Of a DNA stretch of 64,000 nucleotides, positions 4,136-20,579 are shown piece by piece. This DNA is from Fistulifera solaris. Taxonomy: Eukaryota; Bacillariophyta; Bacillariophyceae; Naviculales; Stauroneidaceae. The stretch lies in the NCBI GenBank assembly GCA_030295235.1, contig AP026130.1, positions 1,054,001-1,118,000 on the forward strand, in the 5' to 3' direction. How positions within the stretch are numbered: position 1 is the first letter of the stretch; the number at the start of each line of letters is the position of its first letter. Both the position numbers and the translations under genes were made by a program. Below the pieces are notes generated by a model. That model did no database searches. It was not told where the DNA came from and saw nothing but the letters and a program-made list of their open reading frames with translations.

Positions 4136-5290
4136 TACGTGAAACGTCACAACCCAGTTTTCGCCTCCATCACCTTTTTGAATGGCCTCTTTCAACGATC
4201 CAAGCTCTTTTGATCCCCACTTTTTCACGAGCCAAATATTGTTTCTTGTAGGCATCTCATCCAGTCGCTTTATGGTGTCAAAGCCCGAAGTAATAACACC
4301 AAAGCAGGGCTCGTCGTCATGAATGTCTTCATTATCCGCAGTGTTGATATAAAAGGCCGGGCTTCCATCAACCGCAAACCCGACGGTATTTTTCTTATGA
4401 GGATAGAAATGACTGTACTCGCGAAACACCACTCCATTGAGACCCGCTTTGGTGAACGCTTCCGCCTTGGCAACGGCCGAGCTGCCATCGAAGGGTATGG
4501 GGGCTGCTTTGATGGCATGATGGGCGTTGAGAATAAACGAACACCCATTCAACAGTCCTGACGATACCATATCCAAGAATGTCAAGACAGTGTGCGGGAG
4601 TAATTCGGCTGGCGCGAGTTCAATGATGAAGTGGGTCGGTCCGTCGGCTCCGTCCGGAAACAGCAGTTCCATTTCGACTTCGATGGGGTCATGACCGTAC
4701 TTTTTCCGCACTTCGACGAGACTAGTGGATTGTATTTTTTGAATGAGCTGTGAAACCTGAGCCTTCTCTTTAGTCACTTTAGTTTCCAGTACTTTCATGT
4801 CATGCATGGCGCGAAAGCTTTTGACGCTGTTGGCGAACCCATTGGAGGGCTCTTCGGGTTGAATGAGTTTCATCAAGGCATCCGCCTCCCGCTGCATCGC
4901 ATAAAGTTCTTTCGCGGTGTCTCGGACCTTATTACCGACCCGTAACTGCATCTGTTCCATGATCTGAACTTGCACGGCTGTATTTTTGACGGCCTCTCTG
5001 GAAATGTAAATTGAAGCCATGCCCAAAATGACAAAACTCATGAGAATCAGCGGCAACTTGCGTCTATCACCGGATGCCGAAAATATACGTCCTCGTCTCG
5101 GAGAAGAGGGAGATGGAACGGAAGAAAGAGATTCGTCATCAGAGAAGGGATCCGCAGGATTGTGTCTTCTCTGCGAAAGAAGAACATGCCGTTTGTCCGG
5201 CGAAATACTTATTGGTAGATGTGGATTATTCTTGCTTGTGTGGTCTTTTGTTCTCTGTCCATTAAAACTACCGCTGGATGACCAATGCAT
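4097..5290 (-). CDS. Type II membrane protein with lumenal cyclophilin-like domain
   Basis: 397 aa. A Ser/basic N-terminal tail of about 80 residues (including PSPSSPRRGR) precedes one transmembrane segment (LPLILMSFVILGMASIYI), a coiled-coil stretch (ELYAMQREADALMKLI to LIQKIQS), and a cyclophilin-type beta-barrel domain over roughly residues 200-390 (PTHFIIELAPAELLPHTV, FREYSHFYPHKK, CFGVITSGFDTIKRLD). The canonical catalytic Arg and the FHRV motif of prolyl isomerases are not visible, so the fold may be non-catalytic; the role is unknown. Membrane topology suggests a Golgi or ER location. The last 10 or so residues fall inside a repeat unit, so the natural C-terminus may have been altered by repeat growth. 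Confidence 0.75.
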   Translation of the reverse strand: MHWSSSGSFNGQRTKDHTSKNNPHLPISISPDKRHVLLSQRRHNPADPFSDDESLSSVPSPSSPRRGRIFSASGDRRKLPLILMSFVILGMASIYISREAVKNTAVQVQIMEQMQLRVGNKVRDTAKELYAMQREADALMKLIQPEEPSNGFANSVKSFRAMHDMKVLETKVTKEKAQVSQLIQKIQSTSLVEVRKKYGHDPIEVEMELLFPDGADGPTHFIIELAPAELLPHTVLTFLDMVSSGLLNGCSFILNAHHAIKAAPIPFDGSSAVAKAEAFTKAGLNGVVFREYSHFYPHKKNTVGFAVDGSPAFYINTADNEDIHDDEPCFGVITSGFDTIKRLDEMPTRNNIWLVKKWGSKELGSLKEAIQKGDGGENWVVTFHVPRKFGSVALSCL

Positions 5291-5669: not shown

Positions 5670-6612
5670 TCATATAGCTAAAGTGACGATATACAGGTCC
5701 AGAAATATGCATATAAATACCAAGCAAACAAAACATTGAAAGTAAGGCATATTCTTTTGCCGATAGCAGTTCCAGTCCAGGGGCACCTAGGAAAGATAGG
5801 TGAGAATCGGAAGCTAGAAATGCAAACGACAACCTATATCATCCTTTGAAAACTCACGTGTGATCAAAGCCTTCCACCACTACTGCACAATCCGGATCGT
5901 ACTGTGCTCGTCTCGGGCGGTAGGATACCGCTTGATCGGTCCATCTCCAAGTACTCTCGTCTTGCGGTGGTGGCTTGTGGTATTTGTACAAGATGCCCGG
6001 ATCCGTGCATGCCGTCAACGCGAGAGATACCACCAAACCGACAGTACATAGCGCCCACAAAAGAATGACAGCATATGGAGTGCTTCCTTTTAATATCAGC
6101 TTGAAAGTATACCATGAAGCGGCGAAAATGAGTGGATAAGTGATCAGCATCAGCATAGGCCAAAAGGGACCCACCACAATTTGAATGACGGGTCGCGTAA
6201 AAGTTCGGGATATTATTTCTCCTGATTCTTCATCTTCTGTCACTTCTTCGACCAACTCTTCAGTTGACTTTAACACACTCATATTCCCGACTCGCTGCGC
6301 ACCCAACCGAGAACAAAACCAAGCCGAACAACACAAACACCCCGAGTGATCGCGTTCCAGTTCCGAATCACCGTACGCTCGATTGGGTTTACACGGTTTG
6401 CGACTTTCCTCCCACCAGGTGGGTTCTGTAAGTCCGACGGCGAATGGGGAATCATGCCATTGCTGCACTCGCATGTTGTGTCGTTCAATGTCATACGGAT
6501 CATCGACCGACGAGCGAGGCCCACCACCTTCGAGCGATAAACTGATGATTTCTCGGCTCTCCGGCCCCACTTGTTGCCTGTCCTTTGCTACTGCTGCGCG
6601 TCGTTGTGGCAT
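5670..6612 (-). CDS. DHHC-like protein acyltransferase, DHTC variant, paralog 1
   Basis: Two exons, 5858-6612 and 5670-5786. The 71-bp intron (GTGAGT...CTAG) interrupts the Thr codon of the DHTC motif. About 290 aa: a hydrophilic N-terminus, a Cys-rich knuckle (GCLCCSAWFC), two membrane segments, the acyltransferase DPG motif (TACTDPG), then YRPRRAQYDPDCAVVVEGF and FDHTCPWTGTAIG, and one further membrane segment. In normal DHHC enzymes this region is a zinc-binding Cys/His domain. Here most ligands are replaced, while the palmitoylating Cys of DHxC is kept. Exon 2 needs one more A at 5752-5753 to read KRNMPYFQCFVCLVF as in paralog 2; without it the frame stops at 5678. Only three membrane segments are visible rather than the usual four. 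Substrate and location are unknown. Confidence 0.8.
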
Positions 6613-6707
6613 GTTATCACGGTGTTCATTTCTTTCCTAAACAATTCACTCTTTTTTAACATCGGACCAAAAAGGCACGCAAGAAGGCAATACAATAATT
6701 CAGCTAG

Positions 6708-6758
6708 AATGTCCGGGTTCCCCCTCTGTCGATAAATTTCCATACGGAGGCCTACGTG
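6708..6758. repeat. 51-bp repeat element, solo copy 1
   Basis: This block (AATGTCCGGG...CCTACGTG) is identical over 51 bp to 8408-8458, with unrelated flanks. A related core recurs twice in every unit of the 60-62 kb array (CCGGGT, then GATAAATTTCC, then GGCTACGT or GAGCTACGT). Here it is followed by CTACGCGTAGAC, also seen in the array. Confidence 0.8.
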
Positions 6759-6945
6759 GGTTCTACGCGTAGACAATAAAAGCGTTGCATTATTGCACCC
6801 TTTGGATGCACCGGCTCAAATTGCACTCAAATAAATATGAATGATACGCAACAACACTGTCGGCGAGGTTGAAAATGATGTCGCTGCCAACGAGACCCGA
6901 AAACGGATGCATTCGAAATTTCCTAGAGAGTCAATTTTGACATTA

Positions 6946-8250
6946 AGTCGCGATCGCGTACAACCAACACTTAACCATTATAGTGAAAATGGCGGTCGAC
7001 GATTCGGATGCTTTTCGACGCAAATAGTTGCGTTTCGAATGAAGATGATAGTTAGCTTATATATTGGTATTTCCATGGCATTTGATTATACACTTCGCGC
7101 TTTTTTTTGTGGACAACTTTGGTGCTCTCATTGCTACGGTGGCGTTTCAAGTGACTGAAAGTTAGTCTCGATTGCGTACAACCAACACTTAACCATTATA
7201 GTGAAAATGGCGGTTGACGATACGGATGCTTTTCGACGCAAATAGTTGCGTTTCGAATGAAGATGATAGTTAGCGTCCCTACTACTCCTTATGGTAGAAT
7301 CCCCTACCACATGGATCCACTAAAATCGCGAAAACCTTTATTCGCACGTGTAATTTGTACGACAAACCCGACCTGACCCGACTTGGCGATCTGAAATTTT
7401 CCGAAAAATTTATTTTTCTCCAACAATTTAAATAATAGATACTTTATCATCAGTTGTTCATGATAATAATAATTAAAGTCTTGAAAACATTGAATTTGTC
7501 AACAAAATTTGTGTTTCAATTATGATTAATTAGGGGTAAGGATATTATCTTGTACAGAATCTACACAAAATTTACGTTGGAGCCATGTGGTAGAATTCTA
7601 CCACAAGAGGTTTTGTACCATAGACGTAGGTTTCTACGCTTAAGGTAGAATAATTCTACCACAAGAAAATAGTTGGGATACCCATGGCATCTGATTACTT
7701 CGCGGCTTTTTTTTGTGGACCACTTTGGTGGCGTTTCAATATCGTTACCTTATGCTGATCGTGACTGAGATCAAGTCGCGATCGCGTACAACCAACACTT
7801 TACCCTTATAGTGATAATGGCAGTCGACGATACGGATGCTTTTCGAAGCAAATAGTTGCGTTTCGAAAGAAGAGGATAGTTAGTTCATATATTGGTATAT
7901 CCATGGCATTTGATTATACACTTCGCGCTTTTGGTTGAGGACCACTTTGGTGCTCTCATTGCTACGGTGGCGTTTCAAGTGACTGAAATTGAGTCGCGAT
8001 TGCGTACAACCAACACTTTACCATTATAATGAAAATGGCAGTCGACGATACGGATGCTTTTCGAAGCAAATAGTTGCGTTTCGAATGAAGATGACAGTTA
8101 GCTTGTATATTGGTATATCCATAGCATTTGATTATACACTTCGCGCTTTTTTTTGTGGACAACTTTGGTGCTCTCATTGCTACGGTGGCGTTTCAAGTGA
8201 CTGAAAGTTAGTCGCGATTGCGTACAACCAACACTTTACCATCATAGTAG
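6946..8250. repeat. 218-bp tandem repeat array, about 4.2 copies
   Basis: Unit starts (AGTCGCGAT or similar) are at 6946, 7164, 7774, 7992 and 8210; uninterrupted spacing is 218 bp. Each unit contains ACAACCAACACTT, ATAGTGAAAATGGC, CGATACGGATGCTTTTCG, CCATGGCATTTGATTATAC and CTTCGCGCTTTT. Copy 2 is split by the insertion at 7276-7678 and has a small deletion; copy 5 is truncated after about 40 bp. Open frames in the units differ between copies and are not treated as genes. Confidence 0.9.
7276..7678. mobile_element. MITE-like insertion within the 218-bp array
   Basis: 403 bp of AT-rich sequence interrupts repeat copy 2. Its ends form imperfect inverted repeats of about 25 bp: the left end begins TCCCTACTACTCC and runs to GGTAGAAT; the right end, read inward on the other strand, begins TCCCAACTATTTTC and runs to GGTAGAAT. 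There is an internal palindrome GGTAGAATTCTACC near 7588. It has no coding capacity. A target-site duplication is not clear, perhaps because of a small deletion at the junction. The superfamily was not identified. Confidence 0.65.
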
Positions 8251-8407
8251 ATAGTAGCACGCAGCGCTCTTCCATTCAATCGGTCATGACGAAGGGGAAT
8301 AGCTCATCAAGATAAATGTTTAGTCAAGAGTCAAGAACTAGACTATGCAACGCGACGATATTTCATTATTTCTGTTTTGTTTGTCAATCAACTGAACGGT
8401 CTGCCAA

Positions 8408-8458
8408 AATGTCCGGGTTCCCCCTCTGTCGATAAATTTCCATACGGAGGCCTACGTG
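8408..8458. repeat. 51-bp repeat element, solo copy 2
   Basis: Identical to 6708-6758 over 51 bp, with different flanks. The two solo copies bracket the 218-bp array. Confidence 0.8.
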
Positions 8459-9684
8459 CGTTGCGTCAATTGCTCCTTTCGGATGTTCAATCAATCGTAC
8501 CAGGTAACCAAATACCCGGAGTGCGAATGAATGATGTTGGTGAAGGTAATAGGCACACGAGCCAAGTCGACGCGAGAAACGGTCTGCTCGAATTGAATCA
8601 TATCGAAGCATCCTTTACTTCGGTACATTTCCTATCGACTCTCTTTCGTTCGTTGACATAAGCGTTGACAAACACGCGGCAAAACCGTCGTTCGAGATCA
8701 CAATGGTCCATAACTTGAAGAAATGGAAAGAGCGATTTATTCGCGTCTTTCAACAGCATAACTGAATCATATTATCTGCATCGGAAAGTGGCACATCCAC
8801 AGGTGTTGCGGCATGTTCCTTGTCGCCATACCGGAAACAACGGTGCGGTTTCGCGTGCATTCAAAGTCGGAAAGCTTCGCGCCGCTTTTATGTAATACTA
8901 CGACTGTGGCCTCTTTATCAATACGAAGAGTTAATATCGGGGAACAAGCTGAATTGCTTGCGAAGTCGAAGTCTATTTATGACACGACGTCTGTTTTCTA
9001 AGCTGGTTTTTCATATTCAAGCTGCGAGAAAGTAGTTTTGAAAAGCTCTCCGTTGATCTTCAAACATTGCAGCTGAAAGCAATCAACCATTTGTAACTGA
9101 CAGAAAGCGATCGCCGTCAACGCGAACGACCCACCAGTACTTCAAACAATCAGCCAAGAAGGAAAGAAGCTATCAAAAAGAGAATGAAATGGCCATTTAG
9201 GATGCGTGCATGCACAAATGGGAAGCTTTTGTCGTTTGATTCTAAGTCAGGCGAAAGCGCCCAGATTTCGAAAAGTCGTTTTCTCCTTTCAAGTGGTCGA
9301 AATAAAAATAGTGTTGCTGTACGAAGTTGCTGGTATTAGAAATGGATTCATTTCCCTTTAGTCATCGGATGGATCAGATCAGATATTTGTCTTGTTAAAA
9401 TGAGAACGCAGCGCGTGACAAGTGGACTTTTTAAACCTTAGATTGATGAGGACGAAGAGTGAATGACCGACATTTGTTGAAAAATGCACCTCCGGTACTG
9501 ACACTGTAATGTTACAGTACAAGTGCGACACAAGAGGGGTCTTAATCGAAACGGGATACGGGAACACGACCTGACGCGACAACATTATTTTTTCGCAACA
9601 AAGCACGCAAACACACTTGCACCTTCATCATTCATTTCTACGCCAGTGTTGAATGTTTCATTTTTTAACATTCAGCGCAATACA
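8459..9684. other. Gene-poor stretch, nothing firm
   Basis: No convincing coding sequence. A short minus-strand frame across 8384-8611 includes GAIDATHV, which faintly resembles the catalytic region of Harbinger-type transposases; this is too weak to annotate. The last 200 bp should hold the promoter and leader of the HA-repeat gene. Confidence 0.4.
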
Positions 9685-12109
9685 ATGGATTTACTCGACT
9701 ACAGTTCAGACGAATCATCATCGATTGCATCCACGAATAACGACGGAACAGCGCTAGAAACGCGACAGGAGACGTCCTCCGACGATGCATTCTGGATGGA
9801 GAAGTACCGGCGCCTCAAAACGTTTCACGAAGCGAACGGGCACTGCAATCTTCCCAACTCGAATGAAAACGAACAGCTTTTGTCATGGGTCGCCGATCAA
9901 CGATCTTCCTATCATGCGGGCACGTTGCGCAGTAATCACCAAGTACTTTTGAATGCATTGGGTTTTGTTTGGAGTCTCTCGAGCACCGAATCGAGCACCG
10001 AAGAACAAGCAGCCGATTTGCGCTGGATGGAACGATACAAGCGCTTGGTTGCATTTAAAGCGAAAAATGGTCACATGAAGGTCAAAGCACATGAGGATCT
10101 AGATCTAAAGACATGGATTAACTTCCAACGGGTCCACAAAAAGAAGGCAAGCTTCGAAAAGATCGAGAGCAACTTTTGAATCAGCTTAAATTTGTTTGGA
10201 GTGCGCGAAACATTAAACGACAAGAAGCCGATTCGCGCTGGATGGATGAATACAAGCGGCTCTCTGCATATAAAGATAAACACGGGCACATGAAGGTCAC
10301 ACCGAGCGAGGACAAAGACCTAAGCCAATGGATATACAACCAAAGATCCCACAAACGCAAAGGAATGCTCCGAAAAGATCGGGAACAACTTCTGGATAAG
10401 CTTGAATTTCCTTGGAGTATGAACAACAGCACTGAAAAAGGACGAGCATTCGATGTACTTTGGATGGATCGATACAATCGACTCGCTGCATACAAAAAGA
10501 AGAACGGCCACTTAAATGTCAAAGAGCATGAGGACAAAAACCTAAATAGGTGGATAAGCAACCAGCGGGTCCGTAAGAACACAGGCAAGCTTCCAGAGGA
10601 TCGAGAGCAACTTTTGAATCAGTTGGAATTTGACTGGAAAGCACCCAAACACGTTGTCCAGGACATGTCGACAACTGGGATGAAGTCAGATACACCCTCA
10701 GAATCTAATAACGCAGTTTCTGTTTCCACTCCAGAACCGGTTCGCAGTGTCAACACTCGAAGTGCGAGAATCGATGACAGGGTCTGGAACGCCAACTTAC
10801 AGCTTCTCTTTGATTATAAGAAGCGACATGGTCACACCGATGTACCCCGGAGAGGAAAGACGAAAGAGCTAGGCCAGTGGCTTGTCGTACAGAACTCTCT
10901 CATTGAACGCCGTAAACTTTCAGAGGATAAAGCCACGAGGTTGCTTGATCTGCTGAAAGTGGATACAGTTGAAGATTTACGATCCACGAATTATCAATCA
11001 CCGACGGACGAAGAGTCAAGAGGCAGCACCGAGTCGTCGGAGTCAGCAATCTCATGGACACACGAGAGCGACACGTCGGAAATCATCCAAAGATTTCCCG
11101 TTGGGACTCGGATTGAGAAGCAGTTTGAGGTAGAATACGGCAAATTTGAGCCCTTCGGCGGAACTGTCGTATCCTTCGACCACTTCGAGGATGACGAAGG
11201 TAATCAGTATTGGGGATACATGATTCACTACGACGACGGCGATAGGGAGCATATGCTCGAAGCGGACGTAACCAAACTCGTTGTGGAAACGAAAGGCAAA
11301 AAGAGGGGCCGACCGAGAAAGAAGGAAACAACCATAGCCGAGCCCTGTACTGTACGTGAAGCGAAACGCAAAAATAGGGGCCAGCCAAGCAACGACGATG
11401 CGAATTTGACTAAACGGCAGAAGAAGAAGGGGCATTCGAACGAAGAACTCTATCCGAATACGAATGAGGAGAGAAAGGCGAAAGCCGCGTCAGTTGTAGT
11501 GGCAACTGGCAAGTCGGATAAGAAAGAGTCTAGTGCCCGCGCGGAGAAAAAAGAAGCAGCAAACCAACCTTCTATGCGTACCGAAACGAATGACGTAAAC
11601 AGTAATATGTTGCAACAACAATCGGAGCGAAAAGTCACGCTAGACGACTTTGATCGCAATAACCAAGTCGAGGACTTCGTCGGAGGAGGTGCAGTGATGC
11701 ATATCGGCAATTTATCTACAGAAAACCATGAAGTGGATTCCGAGTCGTTGAATATTGCACGTCAGAGTGAAACAGAAGTGGAGAACGAGGAAAAGAGATT
11801 CGATGAACTAGATCACGAGGATGAGCGTTTGGCTAGTGTCGTGTCTCCAGTTACGGCAGAAGCCATAGGTCCCAAGTCGTCCACCGCGAGCTATCCAAAC
11901 CAAAAGTTTGCAATCGGCACGCCCATTGTCAGAATGTTCTTTGACATGAGCGATAATGAAAAGAAAAGCCGTACTCTGGTAAAGTCACCGAATATGTTTA
12001 CGTCGCCGAGGAGAAGCTTGGGTTGTACTTTGTGCAGTATGACGACGGGGACACAGAGTTTATGGAAGAATGGGAAATTGCCAAATTCTCTTCTTCGCTA
12101 AGCATTTAA
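9685..12109 (+). CDS. Helicase-associated (HA) repeat protein with AT-hook and Tudor-like domains, two frame breaks
   Basis: About 808 aa once two one-base gaps are allowed for: G at 10146-10147 and A at 11964-11967. The start MDLLDYSSDES is chosen because the upstream in-frame sequence looks non-coding. Five HA modules follow one another, each with W..Y.RL..(F/Y)...(N/H)GH...V, W...QR and LL..L.F.W; the fifth (VWNANLQLLFDYKKRHGH) is the most diverged. Next come a Tudor-like module (FPVGTRIEKQF, then YMIHYDDGDREHM), an AT-hook (KKRGRPRKK), a long charged linker and a second Tudor-like module (YFVQYDDGDTEFMEEWEI) that appears only after the second correction. HA repeats are expanded in diatoms, usually without a helicase, and none is present here. 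A chromatin or nucleic-acid role is inferred. Without correction the gene appears as two fragments. Confidence 0.82.
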
Positions 12110-12302
12110 CCAAACTATAAAGCGACTACTCTACTGTCATATTCAGTCATTTTTTCATTTTCGATCGACCGTTGGTGAGTTTGTTACTTCAAAGGTAATA
12201 GCAAATGTTCGATCACAAACTCATGCAGAGACCGCGGAATTAAGTAGGTAATACTCTAGTTTCGGATGCATTATCAGCAAGCAAACGCAAGAATAATGCG
12301 AT

Positions 12303-13317
12303 TTAACCGAAAACACCAGTCAAAAGAAAGACATCAAGAAGCAAGCAAACAAAAACCATAAAGACGAAAACATGGAAAGCACGCAAATTGCGTTTCCCGA
12401 TAGCAGTTCCTGTCCAAGGGCACCTAATAAAGGAAGCCACCGTCAAAGTTAGATGTTCAAGAAATCCGATTCAGCATATCAATTTTTCAAGACTTACGTA
12501 TGGTCAAAATCTTCCACTACCACGGCCGTGTCGGGATCGTAATACGCTCCAGGAGGACGATACGTCTGAGCTTGATCTGACCACCGCCATGTACTATCCG
12601 GCAGCGTTGCTTGTCTCCTTAAGATTCCAGGGTCACGACAACCCGTAAACGCAAGGGAAACGACGAGAGCGATAGTACAAATCAACCACAGAGCTATTAA
12701 GCCTGACGCAAGACGAAGAACAAGATCCGTGAGAAGTACCATTTTCGGACCATACCTTCAATTTTGTCAATCACATCAAAACCTACCAAGCGACTTTGGA
12801 GCCCCGGTCCTTATGCCACCCCAGAATGCCCAAATTGTGACCACCAATATGAGTGGATAGGTCACAAACACCAACATTGGCCAAAAGGACCCACAACAAT
12901 GTCTAAAGATGGCTTTGAAACTTTGCGTTTTTCAAGAATACCAGTTTCCTCATCCAGAACCTCTTCTTCTACCCAGTGTTGCGACTGCCGAAGAACTGCC
13001 ATATTCCCAACTCGACCGGCTTTAAAAAAGGGGCAAACCTTTGCGGAACAACACAAGCAACCCGAATGATCGGGTTCTATATCAGAGTCACCGTACGCGT
13101 CAGTTGCTTTCAGAGGACGATCCCGTTCATCCAACCAGCTCAATTCTGTGAGACCTACAGCGAAAGGAGATTCTTTCCATCGTTTTAATCGAAGCACGTG
13201 CTTCTCCTTTTGACATTCTTCTTCGAGAGAGAGCGGCGCCAGTTCCGACGACTCATTCTCGTTGTTCTCATCCTCTTGCAAACAAGGTTTTAATATTGGA
13301 GCACGACGATGAGCCAT
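12303..13317 (-). CDS. DHHC-like protein acyltransferase, DHTC variant, paralog 2
   Basis: Three exons: 12787-13317, 12498-12702 and 12303-12423. Introns are 84 bp (GTAGGT...GTCAG) and 74 bp (GTAAGT...TTAG); the second sits at exactly the DHTC position used in paralog 1. One T is missing in the run at 12893-12896; restoring it gives GPFWPMLVFVTYPLI and a total of 286 codons including the stop, divisible by three. Layout matches paralog 1: Cys knuckle (GCLCCSAKVC), RVGNM, first membrane segment, second membrane segment ending in GCRDPG, YRPPGAYYDPDTAVVVEDF, FDHTCPWTGTAIGKRN and a final membrane segment. The DHHC zinc ligands are mostly absent and the catalytic Cys is kept. The end of this gene faces the HA-repeat gene. 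Confidence 0.82.
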
Positions 13318-14152
13318 GTTATACGTGAATGCTGATCATGAGAAGAGGAGCAACGAGTGGACGAAAAGAATGAGAATGCAGAGAAAATCTATTATCATTC
13401 GATTATTCACTGCAAATAAAAAATGAAAACAAAATGCGGACGACTATCTCCAAGACTGAAAGTTTGCTTTAGTCGGGAGTCCAGTCACATACACAATTTT
13501 ACGGCATTTGCGAGTTAACGAAAGAAGTTACTCCGGAGTAATCTAGTTTTATTTGAAATGGCAAAGAATAACTGAGTTCCTTGCCTTTCAGCCCACCAAA
13601 TCGTTCATGTACTCTTGACTTTTTATGAAGATTATTGTTAGACTTGTCATCGTCGAGAACTGCCCCGGATGTAGAGCCTATAATGTCTTGGCAATCCGCA
13701 TCTAAACATTGGTAGGGACGGATTGTGTTACGGTTCTGTCATAGAGATAGGAAATAAGCACGCTAAACTCTCAATTTTTATTTTTATTTTATTTTAGCTT
13801 AACGTGTAGGCTAACTTTTCCACGACTGCTTTTCAGTCACGTACGACGATCATTGATTTATTCGTTATTCCTACAGTACCAGGTAAGCTTACGACAAATC
13901 TAAACTATGTTGTGTTCCTTAGAATAATCTACCAATGAATAATGTATACGTAGCTGATGCTGGGGGATAGATATGATAGGTAATGCACACCTGAATTCGA
14001 TTATTTTTCGATGAAACTCGCCCCGGATGCTTCCGGAACAGACCAAGTACTAGGCTTTTAACCATACCATGAACTGCTTCAACAAAAAACGGTTGCTTTA
14101 ACATTACATGTTACACTCCGTGCGACTCAAAACGATGAAAGGCGTGTTTCTC
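13318..14152. other. Intergenic with one copy of the CACGACTG palindrome
   Basis: No gene recognised. A CCACGACTG...CAGTCACG palindrome lies near 13820, the same motif that opens the duplication at 3.46 kb. The rest is AT-rich. Confidence 0.5.
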
Positions 14153-16249
14153 TTAGTTCACGGCAGTCGCCTCGGGAATCGATGTGATAATACCCACACC
14201 GCGGACACGTCCATCGCGGAATAACATACGCATTCCTGGTCGTACATACTCGGGACGTTGCGCAAATTCGAAACGAACTTTCGCACGACTTCCGGGGCGC
14301 AACACGATGTGATTTTCTTCGTTAGATGCGTAGTGGCTTCGAGTCACTCCGCCGATGCTGTTGTTAACAATCTCGATACTTTTTGCAAAGGCGCTCTGCC
14401 TGACGTTCAGAATGTGAACGTACGCTTGATACGACCTTCGAATCGTTGTGCCTTCTCCTTTCAAAACACAGATTTCGGCATCGAATTCACGGGTAGAAAA
14501 CGGGTCCTCTTTTAACACGACCATTCCACGACGTAGTTTCTTACGCATCTCTTTGTTTAACGCGAAAGCAAGACACGCCGACTGACCTGCGGTGATGTGT
14601 GTCGTATTGATGCGTGCGATATGTGCGGATTTAGCAACCGTCTTCATGAAACTTCCGTCATCGGTGGGCCCCACATAAACGTTGCAGTTCGATCCTACAT
14701 GCAATTCACCCGCGTTTACGAATCCAGAAACCACAGGACCAACACCAGGAACGTTGAAAATATCTTCCGCCAAAAACTCAAACTTGCGATTGATTTTGTT
14801 CTCGTGTTTACGTCGCTTGGGCAATGAAAAGAGCATTTTCTGCAACAACGTAATGCCCTCGCCAGTAACGCACGACGTCTCAAACATCGGCGCAAGAGTG
14901 TGGAGTTTGTCCATTACTGTGACTACATCCTCTTCATTCCTGATCTTGAACGGCTTTTTCCCAATTTCCGGCGACCGCAGCATTTTTGTAACCTCTTTTC
15001 GACATGTCTCATATGCGTGTTCAGGACAGCCATCAATCTTGGTGAAAACAACGATAACTGGAATACCAAAACTACAACACAGATTCAAATGTTGTTGCGT
15101 CATGTGCGTGGGTGGCTGTCTAGCGTTCACCATGATCAAAGCGTAATCCGCAAAACCCGAGGACACACCATGGATACTGTATCATTATGATCCAAGTCAG
15201 TCAAACAGCAGTACCGCGACACACAAACCAACTCGTCTCACAAAGCTACTTACGTTGTTTTCAAGTACTTCTCGTGCCCCGCAAGATCCATGAGTGTCAC
15301 CGTCTTATACGACTCGCGAGCCACTTCGTCTTCACTTTTCCGCTTGGCTCGTACCGCATCGCGTCCCGTGACCGGTTCTCCCGTCGAACGAAAACCCAAC
15401 AAATGCGTTGTGGCCGTCGAAGTGCGACCACTTTCAATTTCGTGCCGATGTTTCATAATGGCGGTTCGACTCTTTCCACGACCGTCATCCAACGCTGCCG
15501 TAATCAAAGTACCAATGAGAGTCGATTTTCCCGCATCAACATTTCCAACTACTGCCACTCGGATGTTGCGCGCCGACAAGGTCTCCCCAATACTGAACGA
15601 CTCGTCGTTGCTGGTATCCATAGTAGTACTTCCTTGCGATGCGTTCGCCAATTCCGCCACGGATTTCGGCGATGGATCCAACAGATGTGTTTCGACACGA
15701 TGAATCGACAATTCTCCTCGTGTTATGACACCCGGCTCTTTACACAGCATGGGATCTTCTTTGACAACCACTGGATGGCCCGCCGCATCTCCAAAAATGG
15801 GTGCTTCGTACGCCTTGAGCGACGTTCCTACCAATTCCCCCTCCACGACTTCCTTTTGAATCATGATTCGTTCAACCACAATGGCATTGAGTGATCGCGC
15901 GATGCATTCGAGCACCCGCGCCGATTCGGCGACCGATGGATAATCGAGCAGACTGTGACAACCATCATCTTCGACTCCGATATAATAACGACAGGATCCG
16001 CCTCCTTCGTCCATACGAAACGACATTTGTGTGGCTAATGACCGTAGTCGAGCCGTATTGGCTTGATTGACTTGTCGCTTGTATTCGATGGGTCCTTTCT
16101 GGAATGCGGAAATGAGAAACGACGATGAAAGGAATGAATGAATCTTGCACTCCCAGTCTTGCACCTACCTGTTGTTCCGGCGGTACGACAGGGATCGACC
16201 GCCGCATATCATCTCTTGGTACCGATGGTTTATTATTATTTAATGTCAT
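14153..16249 (-). CDS. GTPBP1/GTPBP2-type translational GTPase
   Basis: Three exons, 16169-16249, 15254-16098 and 14153-15176, with introns of 70 bp (GTAGGT...CCAG) and 77 bp (GTAAGT...ACAG). Every junction keeps frame, giving 649 aa with no break. The G domain shows the P-loop GNVDAGKST (residues about 212-220), the switch II motif DLAGHEKYLKTT split by intron 2, and TKID (G4). Downstream are EF-Tu-like beta-barrel domains (NVPGVGPVVSGFV, then LRPGSRAKVRFEF and RPEYVRPGMRMLFRDGR). The length and the spacing before the P-loop fit the eukaryotic GTPBP1 family, linked to mRNA surveillance and ribosome rescue. The 27-residue first exon (MTLNNNKPSVPRD) is the only upstream ATG that splices in frame. 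Confidence 0.92.
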
Positions 16250-16844
16250 CTTTTCAACAAGATACCCACACTTCGAGGAAGTGTTGCGGGCCTTCTATTT
16301 TCTTGTACCTTGTGGATGTTGATTCGGTATGTCGTTGTTGACACAGCGACGCTGTAATAATTCTTTCGGAGATTTTGTAGCGCGGGTGCGGGGTTGGCGT
16401 TTTGGATGTTGCGGCTTTATTTTCCCCCGCGCTGACGTGATGGATCCATTTTCGATCGGGACTGCAGGTCATTTCATTCCCGAACGAAGAAATCCGAACA
16501 CGCGGATACGCACACGTCACACTGGTCCTCGGTTTCGGCGAGCGTCGTTGTCGTTGTCAAGCTTGTTTTATTCTATACGAAGCAATACCACTCCGACGTT
16601 TCGTACGTAGGGTCGCTAATGACGTACGAGGCCACTGGCGATTGCACTGTATCTTTCTATACAATGCCAATCGCTGGCGACGGGCCACGCGCAGGTCTGT
16701 TTGCAGCGTGCACGAAGCACGACACCCATTTTTGCTTGCGAAAAGAAAGCGTTCACCCGCAACTAGAACCTTTCTTATACTTGTGAATCCAAATTCATTC
16801 GGTTAGTGATCCTAACACGTGCCAATAAGCGCCCCCACAATATC
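16250..16844. other. Divergent promoter region with a stable hairpin
   Basis: This is the shared upstream region of the GTPase gene (minus) and PGRL1 (plus). It contains an inverted repeat at 16638-16674: GCGATTG and CACTGTAT pair with ATACAATG and CAATCGC, with one mismatch, one bulged C and a 6-base loop. No tRNA or other RNA gene was identified. Confidence 0.5.
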
Positions 16845-17923
16845 ATGTTGTTCCGATTGACATCCGCATTTCTGAGCGTCCTGTTGCTGGCGCCTTCGGC
16901 GACCGCCTTTACCATCCATCCACAGGCCACAACAACGTTCACTCGATCGGGAAAATTGACGGCCAAGGATGATAAAGCCGAATCCTTTTTACCGAAGAAG
17001 AAGAAAAATCGAAATTCATTACATCGGTCTTTAATAAAGAACTCGCGTTTGATCAAAAGTCGGGTCGTTTTTTTCGAGACGGGTTTTGGCGAAGGTGATT
17101 GCGTCCCCGAGGAAGAGTTTTGTATGGTCGATGACGCATCCGGAACTCCCGTTCGATTGACTGTCGAAGAGAAGGAACGAATTTTCTTGGATGCCCTTCA
17201 GGTGAGTCATACATAAACTGTTGTCATTGAAGCCTGTTTTAGCGCTCATCGTTCGCTCACTTCCTCAACTACCGATAGTCGTACTATGTGTCAGGTCGAC
17301 AGATGTTGTCGGATGCCGAATTCGACAGATTGAAAGAAGATTTAGAATGGAACGGATCGCCTTTGGTGGCAATGAATCAAAAGGAAGTCCGATACATGAC
17401 AGCCATGCAAGAGTACATGAAGGGAACGCCCGTCATGAGTGATGCCGAGTTTGATAAGCTGAAGCAGGAATTGAAAGAAGAAGGATCGCAGTTTGCGGTA
17501 GACACGGAACCAAAATGCTACATTGATACGGGGATTTGCAAAGTGACGTTTCAACAAGACAAATTCCGAAACAATCTTCTCTATCTACCGGCTGGATTAA
17601 TCTTGTTTTTGACCTGGCTCTTCTTCAGCTACGAACTCATCAACCCTCTCATTGCTATCAACCCTGTTATCCTCGCGACGGTTGGATTGCCTTTTATCTA
17701 CAGTGGTTCCAAGGCCGTTACGGAAAACCTCATCTTTACCGACAACAAGGTCCTCTACGGACCGTGCCCGAACTGCAGTTTCGAAAACCGTGTTTACTTT
17801 GGCAACATCTTGGGTGTAGATGGCTTTACGGATGTAGCAAAATGCAAGTGCCCCAATTGCAGAACAGAGTTCAGTGTCTTGAAAAATACGATGCGAGCGA
17901 GCACTATAGTACCTAAAGCTTAA
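16845..17923 (+). CDS. PGRL1: PGR5-like protein 1 (PGRL1), plastid precursor
   Basis: Two exons, 16845-17201 and 17279-17923, around a 77-bp intron (GTGAGT...GATAG); 333 aa. The start MLFRLTSAFLSV gives a signal peptide ending in SATAF|TIHP, the diatom plastid targeting motif; an in-frame ATG 39 bp upstream would spoil it. The mature part has the PGRL1 pattern: LSDAEFDRLKEDLEW, a repeated MSDAEFDKLKQELKEEGS, CYIDTG, two membrane spans (residues about 220-275), and a C-terminal CPNC...CKCPNC set of cysteines. In plants PGRL1 works with PGR5 in antimycin-sensitive cyclic electron flow around photosystem I in the thylakoid. All expected motifs are intact. Confidence 0.92.
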
Positions 17924-18264
17924 AAAACAACATCCGTCCTTTGCAATGATACAAGAATTGCAAGCTGCGACACTAGCGGACTAACGAAAAATAATTAAAA
18001 TCCCTTGAAAGCAGGAGACCAAATAAATCTTTCTTACTGTGCTCAACCTAGATTAGCGTCATCAACATCCAATTCAAAATGAATCATCTCAAGAGGTTTG
18101 TCACAAGGAGTCAACCTCGCGTGTGTTGACAACAAATAATAATGAAAAGCGGCACACAAACACGTACAAAATAAAATAAAGAGCTTAGCAACATCATACC
18201 CAAGAAGCACCAGATGAATCATACCCAAGAAGCACCAGATGACACATTATTGTGATTTAAATCC
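17924..18264. other. Intergenic with a short perfect direct repeat
   Basis: Holds the PGRL1 3' flank and the 3' flank of the SNARE gene. A direct duplication of about 25 bp (ATCATACCCAAGAAGCACC) occurs at about 18197-18242. No gene seen. Confidence 0.5.
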
Positions 18265-19233
18265 TTATGTATACACCACGAGAAGAAGTAGCAAAAGCAT
18301 GATTCCAAACAGAACCATAATCGTATACAGTTCGCCATTGTTCTTTGTTTGCAAAAACTTGGATAATTTCCCCATCACCAGTCCTAATTGTTGTTCGGCT
18401 TCATCGAGATCCGACTCCATTTCCGTCAACATTTTATGTTGTTGCCCAATCTCATCATGAATCCCATCGGCCATGCGTCCCACGCGCGTCACGGCGGCAT
18501 CCAATTCATCCAATGTTTCATCCTGATGTTGCATTAACAAAGAAGTCCGCGCCTGAGAATCCAAAATCCGCGTCGTATTTTCGCGTTGCGCCGCATTGGT
18601 GGCACCCAAATCCCCCGCCCGCCGCACCGCCTTGGCGCGTTCGTCTTGCAGCAACTTGGCCTTGACGGCCTCGGATGCACTCTCCTGTTTCGCGCGATGA
18701 ATCCGTCCCGCACTCGTCTCACACAGTGTCCGTCGTTCGTACAATTCAGCATCATGAATGTGGGGAAATTTGTCACGATCGTTGTCGACCAATTGTACCG
18801 TCATTTGCACGTCTTTCAAAGTCGCTTCCGCATGTTTCAAATGTCGTTTCAGTGTTTTCTTGGAACTTTTCATTTCGTATGTATTGACGGATGTATCCTG
18901 ATGCGAGTGAATGAGAAACGTATGAAAAAGAATGACGCAGAAACGAACACGACGTACCGTTTGATGCACGACGCGCAAAAACTCGGCCAGTGCTTCATCG
19001 ACCAGTTCGAGTTGCTGCATTAAATCAGCGCGAAATACAAAATACGGATCTTCCGGTGACTCATCGTGATTCATTCCCGCCGTCAGAGGTTCCGATAAAT
19101 GATCCTGGGAACGCATGCGAAACGATGCACCCGACGCTACCGAGGCGGCCGCAGAACGAAGCGTGCTGGGTCGGAAGGACGAAGAATCAAAATTACTTTT
19201 GCAATTGTTTCCGTTCAGCGATTCGTACGACAT
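18265..19233 (-). CDS. Qc-SNARE, syntaxin-6/SYP61-like
   Basis: The open frame is 322 codons, but 18898-18957 (60 bp, GTACGT...CATCAG) is most likely an intron that is a multiple of three and free of stops, leaving 302 aa. An N-terminal syntaxin-6-like segment (EDPYFVFRADLMQQLELV) is interrupted by this intron. A helical region, the Qc SNARE motif (QDETLDELDAAVTRVGRMAD through GQQHKMLTEMESDLDEAEQQ) and a C-terminal membrane anchor (IMVLFGIMLLLLLLVVYT) follow. This arrangement fits SNAREs of the trans-Golgi/endosome system. The polypeptide translated from unspliced RNA would add 20 hydrophobic or basic residues (VRRVRFCVILFHTFLI...) between helices. Confidence 0.88.
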   Translation of the reverse strand: MSYESLNGNNCKSNFDSSSFRPSTLRSAAASVASGASFRMRSQDHLSEPLTAGMNHDESPEDPYFVFRADLMQQLELVDEALAEFLRVVHQTVRRVRFCVILFHTFLIHSHQDTSVNTYEMKSSKKTLKRHLKHAEATLKDVQMTVQLVDNDRDKFPHIHDAELYERRTLCETSAGRIHRAKQESASEAVKAKLLQDERAKAVRRAGDLGATNAAQRENTTRILDSQARTSLLMQHQDETLDELDAAVTRVGRMADGIHDEIGQQHKMLTEMESDLDEAEQQLGLVMGKLSKFLQTKNNGELYTIMVLFGIMLLLLLLVVYT

Positions 19234-19538
19234 TTTTACAAGAATATATGTTTCAATTGCTTCACAAGACGAGGAATATGTTCGAGGAAGGGTTTACAAA
19301 CAAGAAGCAAGTGACAACGAAGGCCTCATCATCATTTTTGTGTTTGTTGTTGTGTTGCATTTTATTTTTTTGTGTTTCAAAAAAGGTCGCGTGCCTTTCG
19401 TTTGTAGTGGTTCGGAAGCGTTAATAATAAAACGTGTCGGACGTCAGAGCGGTTCTAATTTAATGTTGCAACGCAAAACACGCAACACACTCGTCGCCAT
19501 TTTCCGTTGAAACGATCGAAGAGATACCACAAACGACC
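19234..19538. other. Divergent intergenic region, nothing recognised
   Basis: Separates the SNARE gene (minus) from acyltransferase paralog 3 (plus). It is T-rich around 19330-19380. No repeat or RNA gene seen. Confidence 0.5.
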
Positions 19539-20579
19539 ATGATATCCGCCAACAGCGAACAAATCATTCAAGAATGGAACCGCGTCGTCAATGGCATTGA
19601 AGAAGGCAGTGAAGTGGCGTCACTGGACGAAAGTGTTCAAGAAAACGACGAGGTTGCCCGCCATTGGCGGGCGTCACCCTTGCCGTGGGAAAATCCAAAA
19701 TTACGTGGGCCGATGAAGATGTTGGTTGTAGAACGTGCTGTCGTTCGTGTTTTACTGGAAAGAAGAGTGTTGTGTTACAATTCAGTGGTCTCATTTGTGG
19801 AAAATTACCGGTCGGTCGCGTCGGGAATCTCATTGTTTTGAAACAAAGGACGGAAGCCGTTCTCGATGACAATCAACAAAAAATAGGTGAACGACCACGA
19901 CTTTTATGTGTGTTAGGTCCTTACTGGCCCATGATGGCTTTTATTACAATACCGGGTCTGGTTTTGTTTTCTTTTTCGACTTGTTATATGCATGAACTGT
20001 GGAACAGCACCTGGCAGTTTGTTATACTATTGGCGGTCAACACAATTGCCATCGTTTCACTCCTCATGACGGCGTGTTCCGATCCGGGAGTCTTGTATCG
20101 ACACGCCGAACTACCGCCGGGTCACACGGCCGAATCGACCATTTGGATTTGGAGTGATCAAGCCTTGACCTATCGACCACCAAATGCACGATTTGATCCA
20201 GAAACGGGGGTGGTCGTGGCCGACTTTGATCATACGTGCCCCTGGACCGGAACCGCCATTGGAGAAAACAATATTTTGTGGTTTCGTTTCTTTGTTCCCT
20301 TTGCTTTCATCTCGTTGATAACGAACATGGTCATACTCGTTTGGCCCGATTAGTTCAAACGCGGCGAATGAACAACAGCTGTTCAATTTTGAAAAGACGA
20401 CTAACAAAGCATTGGCGGTGGCCGTTGTTGAGCCTTCTGTAGCGGGATGTACAGATTGTGAAACTCTTGCTTGGAAAAACAGCCTCTACTGTGTGGACGA
20501 TAAGAACGAGAATGAGGAGAAGCTCCAATCTAAACAAGTGATACTTGAGTCTGACATTCACCTGAAACCTTTGACTTGA
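19539..20579 (+). CDS. DHHC-like protein acyltransferase, DHTC variant, paralog 3
   Basis: Two frame breaks: one T missing at 19680-19681, and one base too many near the T run at 20340-20342. With both allowed for, the frame runs 347 codons including the stop, to 20579. Features follow paralogs 1 and 2: RHWRASP, a Cys cluster (GCRTCCRSC), VGRVGNLIVLK, LGPYWPMMAF with the first membrane segment, a second segment ending in ACSDPGVLY, YRPPNARFDPETGVVVADF, DHTCPWTGTAIGENN and a third membrane segment. Unlike the others it has no intron in the DHTC codon and appears to carry an extra hydrophilic tail containing GCTDCETLAW. It is the most diverged of the three. Zinc ligands are lost as in its relatives. 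Confidence 0.75.

Follow-up and report, generated by a model that had tools for sequence, protein, structure and literature searches.

Three short, zinc-poor DHHC-family genes in Fistulifera solaris keep the catalytic residues under purifying selection

The diatom Fistulifera solaris is an allopolyploid with 42 homoeologous chromosome pairs and a guanine-cytosine (GC) content of about 45% (PMC5935921; here as below, papers are cited from extracts of their text). The window, by which we mean the whole stretch of 64,000 nucleotides (nt) that was analyzed (C11:1054001-1118000, GC 0.458), includes three paralogous genes, g1, g2 and g3, whose products homology places in the DHHC family. In all three, the cysteine-rich domain (CRD) has lost seven or eight of the eight zinc ligands, and the catalytic Asp, His and Cys are retained. 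The genes and the features to which we refer are the following.

5678-6612, minus strand: g1, with exon 1 at 5858-6612, a predicted intron at 5787-5857 and exon 2 at 5678-5786
5759..5949, minus strand: CRD of g1, WRWTDQAVSYRPRRAQYDPDCAVVVEGFDHTCPWTGTAIG, split by the intron at 5787-5857
6313..6339, minus strand: N-terminal Cys cluster of g1, CLCCSAWFC
12303-13317, minus strand: g2, with exon 1 at 12787-13317, exon 2 at 12498-12702 and exon 3 at 12303-12423
12703-12786 and 12424-12497, minus strand: predicted introns of g2
12396..12589, minus strand: CRD of g2, WRWSDQAQTYRPPGAYYDPDTAVVVEDFDHTCPWTGTAIG, split by the intron at 12424-12497
13033..13059, minus strand: N-terminal Cys cluster of g2, CLCCSAKVC
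19539-20353, plus strand: g3, with its ATG at 19539, stop codon at 20351-20353, no intron seen and a frame change at about 19680
20144..20263, plus strand: CRD of g3, WIWSDQALTYRPPNARFDPETGVVVADFDHTCPWTGTAIG

The g1 protein has 287 amino acids (aa) as assembled and 292 in its intact homoeolog on contig C12, and it is made up of the first two transmembrane segments (TM1, TM2), the ligand-free CRD, a DHTC motif and TM3, in that order. The g2 protein has 285 aa when it is read across a frame change at about 12884 in exon 1. The Thr codon of DHTC is split by a predicted intron in g1 (71 nt) and g2 (74 nt), such that DHTCPW is read unbroken only in g3. Another gene pair of the same genome, C1/C2, has a predicted intron at the same place.

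Judged by sequence homology, g1, g2 and g3 are members of the DHHC family. Against the Pfam DHHC profile (PF01529), whose curated cut-off is 28.7 bits, g1 (in the form of its C12 homoeolog), g2 (with its frame change bridged) and g3 (entered as 19682-20350) score 55.9, 49.5 and 48.3 bits, covering positions 7-69, 7-68 and 13-69 of the 133 in the profile. The E-values (6.2e-15, 5.8e-13 and 1.3e-12) exclude a chance likeness. DHHC is the only Pfam family above cut-off in the three proteins, and no ankyrin repeats were found in them at that level; g1, the one protein compared with NCBIfam, matched none of its families. In sequence searches against solved structures, the ZDHHC9 and ERF2 chains are the best matches (8hf3, 8hfc), and ZDHHC5 and DHHC20 are found as well.

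Aligning the proteins with the corresponding stretches of the DHHC20, ZDHHC5, ZDHHC9 and ERF2 chains gives the residues at the ligand positions, which we take to be C128, C131, H141, C142, C145, C148, H155 and C162. In that order, g1 has T, A, Y, D, C, V, T, A (one of eight ligands kept), g2 has S, A, Y, D, T, V, T, A (none kept), and g3 has S, A, F, D, T, V, T, A (none kept). Thus none of the three has two zinc sites with eight Cys or His ligands. An earlier note on this DNA had reported at least three lost ligands, with Thr for the His of DHHC and Ala for the Cys of NCxG; both replacements are seen in the alignment rows of all three proteins, and the losses go beyond that count, to seven in g1, eight in g2 and eight in g3.

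The catalytic positions are intact. Within the DHHC motif (residues 153-156; PMC8227752), the equivalents of D153, H154 and C156 are retained in g1, g2 and g3, and so are the Trp of CPW, the Asn of GxxN (read for g1 in its homoeolog) and the DPG motif (as TDPG, RDPG and SDPG). The alignment therefore agrees with the earlier note that the acyl-carrying Cys and DPG are kept in all three paralogs. The literal motif is absent, being DHTC in g1-g3 and DHLC in C1/C2. Because Akr1, Akr2 and Pfa5 have DHYC (PMC8107437), the absence of the second His alone does not exclude membership in the family.

We can ask how selection acts on these proteins because contig C12 holds homoeologs of g1, g2 and g3 in the same order and orientation and with the same gene structure. 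C11 and C12 are 84-87% identical at the DNA level in the blocks with g1-g3, and 73-85% in the other aligned blocks of the region. The ratio of nonsynonymous to synonymous substitution rates (Ka/Ks) between homoeologs is 0.125 for g1 (261 codons), 0.109 for g2 (214 codons; exon 2, with most of the CRD, is left out) and 0.115 for g3 (268 codons). The CRD is identical between homoeologs in 39/40, 40/40 and 39/40 residues. Its DNA differs at 6, 5 and 10 nt, whereby 1, 0 and 1 aa are changed (counted over 39, 49 and 47 codons, where the g2 and g3 stretches include the start of TM3). The ligand-free CRD is under strong purifying selection. Between paralogs, the CRD stands out, with 32, 27 and 32 of 40 residues identical in the three comparisons, versus about 24-50% elsewhere: 47/97, 13/45 and 12/45 in the N-terminus, 24/53, 17/52 and 15/52 in TM1-TM2, and 12/29, 7/29 and 7/29 in TM3. 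With Ka/Ks at 0.11-0.13 and a ligand-free CRD that is nearly invariant, these genes are not decaying, just as the earlier note had argued from the pattern shared by the paralogs.

Each of g1, g2 and g3 has at least one frame change as assembled. The g1 of C11 has one single-base difference from its homoeolog, at about 5753, that shifts the last codons; g2 has one frame change per contig, at different places; and g3 has one common to both contigs and another on C12 only. In the homoeolog alignments, g1-g3 have 5 frame-breaking single-base differences over about 2.5 kb, one of them at the edge of the g1 start codon; five control frames have the same number over about 4.7 kb, some of them at exon edges. 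We take the unshared frame changes to be assembly noise, although the overall rate in g1-g3 is roughly double the control rate. The shared change in g3 could stem from base calling that errs systematically, from recoding or from an old lesion. Elsewhere in the window, ordinary genes have single-base homopolymer frame differences at 4735 and 14513, which suggest base-calling errors in the assembly.

The genome (51.7 Mb, 61 contigs) has at least 17 DHHC gene pairs. Nine of these pairs keep 8/8 ligands and the other eight lack some, as tabulated from one member of most pairs. The pairs that matter here besides g1-g3 are the following.

L014/L015: one ligand, DHFC, continues to TTNE or TTIE
C39/C38 gene (L025+L030 / L026+L029): one ligand, DHYC; L025 (C39) continues to TTNE or TTIE
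C1/C2: two ligands, DHLC, ends after TM3
L013/L017: four ligands, DHYC/DHFC
L018/L022: five ligands
L020/L021 (C16:710617, C15:768245): 8/8 ligands, DHHC; both homoeologs stop after their third hydrophobic segment

The C39 row (D025 in the tree) is joined across an assumed intron, with position 162 uncertain; the L027 row of the ligand table has a guessed residue at the exon join; and the CRDs of L022, L026 and L028 are not readable in one frame in the assembly. Asp occupies the C142 position in 7/8 of the ligand-poor pairs.

A tree inferred without the ligand columns, and without L022, L026-L030, C2 and the g2 of C12, places g1-g3, C1 and L020/L021 in one cluster with support 93/98. In one of the alignments (A4), exon 3 of g2 is left out. 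Among these grouped short forms, the number of ligands runs from 8 (L020/L021) to 2 (C1/C2) to 1 or 0 (g1-g3). In the whole tree, 10/24 inner branches are open, and the zinc-poor state requires at least 6 changes, a count that cannot separate gain from loss. A single zinc-poor clade in the genome is rejected by the approximately unbiased (AU) test (p 0.00026), with the reserve that long branches are present.

Outside this genome, the viral and genome contig collections searched gave no sequence from another diatom. In the viral contigs, the alignment scan for the g1-g3 family gave 33 pattern stretches and a scan with four ordinary DHHC proteins gave 17, of which none were confirmed, and the CPWTGT and DHTCPW patterns had one match each, both by chance. 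In the genome contigs, DHTCPW occurs in 15 stretches, with a DHHC context in 0/15.

Hydropathy identifies three hydrophobic segments in each of g1, g2 and g3, in agreement with the earlier note, and none of them reaches four helices. The proteins stop after the third membrane helix. L020 and C1 also have three hydrophobic segments. We looked for the TTxE motif within 1 kb downstream in the three sense frames, and it is absent in 10/10 sequences.

The earlier note also proposed that an N-terminal Cys knuckle, GCLCCSxxxC, may replace the lost zinc site. The cluster is present in g1 and g2, and it is rearranged in g3 (GCRTCCRSC...ICG). We reject the replacement: L020/L021 has all eight ligands together with a comparable cluster, CSSCCTPC. 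Since the eight-ligand L020/L021 has both the Cys cluster and the short form, neither needs to follow from zinc loss.

Yeast Akr1 resembles g1-g3 in that most zinc ligands are gone and the catalytic residues are kept. Its second His of DHHC is also replaced (DHYC; PMC8107437), and it is active although six ligands, namely five Cys and one His, are missing from the eight (PMC8227752). In Akr2, a relative of Akr1, the Asp-His is required for activity (PMC8107437). Unlike g1-g3, which have lost seven or eight ligands and stop behind TM3, Akr1 has the usual C-terminal half and is proven active. It also carries ankyrin repeats (PMC3234281). Enzymes of the Erf2/ZDHHC9 type share with g1-g3 the order TM1-TM2-CRD-TM3 and the RP, D-H-x-C, W and GxxN residues, but Erf2 has all eight zinc ligands. 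These enzymes also have TM4 and TTxE, and g1-g3 have neither. L020/L021 resembles g1-g3 in having an N-terminal Cys cluster, there beside a VGRM box that is like RVGN in g1-g3, three hydrophobic segments (in L020), no TTxE, and a place in the same tree group, and it differs in its DHHC motif and 8/8 ligands. Finally, a clade of DHHC genes in Trichomonas also consists of duplicates in which conservation at the HC, C and DHHC positions is poor; those are read as duplicates freed from constraint (PMC4109852), whereas g1-g3 show measured purifying selection.

Among the matches listed in the open-licence PubMed Central (PMC) literature, which does not cover subscription papers, we found no description of the DHTC form or of these proteins. 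The earlier note had allowed that its proposal would fall if such forms were well described. Zinc-poor forms are indeed known from Akr1 and occur in five further gene pairs here, so the novelty that the note implied is too high; the DHTC form itself was not found described.

What could these proteins do? The explanation that we put first, at about an even chance, is that they are short DHHC relatives that probably keep acyl-cysteine chemistry, active alone or in a complex. They would be three-helix membrane proteins of about 290 aa derived from an Erf2/ZDHHC9-like DHHC S-acyltransferase, and in the simplest order of events the fourth helix and the TTxE tail would have been lost first, and zinc later. 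The CRD would fold without metal, with Asp, aromatic, Val, Ala and Thr/Ser side chains filling the ligand positions, and its Cys would still be exposed at the membrane surface, where acyl-coenzyme A could acylate it. A working CRD without metal is plausible because Akr1 is active with six ligands lost and because the active-site Cys of DHHC20 does not bind zinc ions, which suggests a structural role for zinc (PMC8227752). Since the fourth helix and TTxE are lacking, the proteins may work in a complex, either with themselves or with a full-length DHHC enzyme that would supply the missing part. Of the label acyltransferase used in the earlier note, the DHHC homology stands; the activity is only inferred, with TTxE and a recognizable fourth helix missing.

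Several observations weigh against this explanation. The missing fourth helix and TTxE are a larger obstacle than the loss of zinc, as TTxE touches the catalytic Asp/His in DHHC20 (PMC8227752, PMC8107437), and because the core of the enzyme consists of four helices, the three-helix form may be inactive alone. In DHHC3, mutating zinc ligands changes the structure (PMC8227752). The CRD is not unique in its conservation between homoeologs: the DPG linker of g1 (19/19), TM3 of g3 (29/29) and the N-terminus of g3 (44/45) are equally conserved. Both homoeologs of g3 have the shared frame change (19670-19690), although the protein is conserved to either side of it. The clade of short forms has long branches, and its support is not starred. 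Lastly, an AlphaFold2 model of the g3 frame, built with four alignment rows from the window only, is too poor to reveal a folded CRD (mean predicted local distance difference test, pLDDT, 44; predicted template modeling score, pTM, 0.31).

A bolder version goes further, and we consider it doubtful. In this version, g1-g3 would be metal-free half-DHHC enzymes with an auto-acylating D-H-T-C center and a zinc-free core, their active site completed by a dimer or a partner. They would represent one branch among several in which the family gave up zinc separately in this alga, with 8 of the 17 gene pairs affected and the same change of Cys142 to Asp in 7 of those 8, perhaps as an adaptation to zinc-poor seawater.

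Of the alternatives, the one that survives best is that g1-g3 are pseudoenzymes, which transfer no acyl group and instead serve true DHHC enzymes as regulators, decoys or subunits that bind substrate, with the CRD as the binding surface. We hold this to be a serious possibility, if short of likely. It fits proteins with no TTxE, no recognizable fourth helix and one zinc ligand or none, in a genome where canonical DHHC members with all ligands coexist. However, pseudoenzymes usually lose their catalytic residues first, and here it is the structural ligands that are lost and the catalytic residues that remain: g1-g3, their C12 homoeologs and C1 all retain the three catalytic residues (Asp, His and Cys) along with DPG and the CPW Trp, and C2 likewise retains a CRD with its catalytic residues.

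Alternatively, g1-g3 could be ordinary zinc-poor enzymes like Akr1, with the standard mechanism, and the missing C-terminus would be an annotation gap, an unrecognized exon. The activity of Akr1 with 6/8 ligands lost (PMC8227752) makes such an enzyme conceivable, zinc-poor paralogs that reach TTNE or TTIE exist in this very genome (L014/L015, and L025 of the C39 gene), and there are hydrophobic stretches that are alike in the homoeologs downstream of g2, C1/C2 and L020/L021. But TTxE is missing within 1 kb downstream of all 10 sequences, and we read none of these stretches as TM4. The one after g1, also alike in the homoeologs, is the start of a neighboring cyclophilin-like open reading frame (ORF). 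The one after g2 (+516/+520 in the homoeologs) is antisense to the helicase-associated-repeat ORF, at 11751-11807. After C1/C2, the stretch (+338 in L034, about 340 nt after the stop; +290 in L077, about 290 nt) is alike in 12/19 residues, versus 98% in the coding part, and it may reflect chance, a gene on the antisense strand or an exon that went unrecognized. The L020 copy of the stretch after L020/L021 (+457/+453) recurs in a repeated tract. There is no downstream hydrophobic stretch after g3 in either homoeolog, and the homoeolog alignment stops 75 bases past the stop codon. We find this alternative improbable.

That the genes are decaying duplicates, pseudogenes in which neutral drift removed the zinc ligands and the C-terminus, is very improbable: frame changes per kb at about twice the control level and the g3 change common to both homoeologs speak for it, but Ka/Ks is 0.109-0.125, the CRD is nearly invariant in the presence of silent changes, the gene structure is the same on both contigs, and control genes carry single-base frame differences too.

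As for the neighborhood, the region between g1, g2 and g3 has a helicase-associated-repeat protein, a GTP_EFTU-domain protein (in two ORFs), a syntaxin-6-like protein and two ORFs without a match above cut-off. The helicase-associated-repeat (PF03457) protein lies at 9502-12101, between g1 and g2. It diverges faster than its surroundings, with 61% aa identity between homoeologs (best stretch of 10122-12101) versus 71-99% in the neighboring ORFs compared.

DHHC enzymes are usually described by their zinc ligands, at least four helices and TTxE. Surveys that discard sequences without conservation of DPG, the DHHC-CRD or TTxE would miss proteins such as these, as would the one in PMC4109852, which dropped sequences with poor conservation of these elements from its main data set, a set with two diatoms among its sources. 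The repeated change of Cys142 to Asp points to a specific metal-free way of stabilizing the domain. The series of 8, 2, 1 and 0 ligands among the grouped short forms of a single genome makes the order of loss testable. And a lineage that has none of the three defining features, and yet has its catalytic residues under strong selection, would be a minimal experiment of nature on the requirements of the enzyme.

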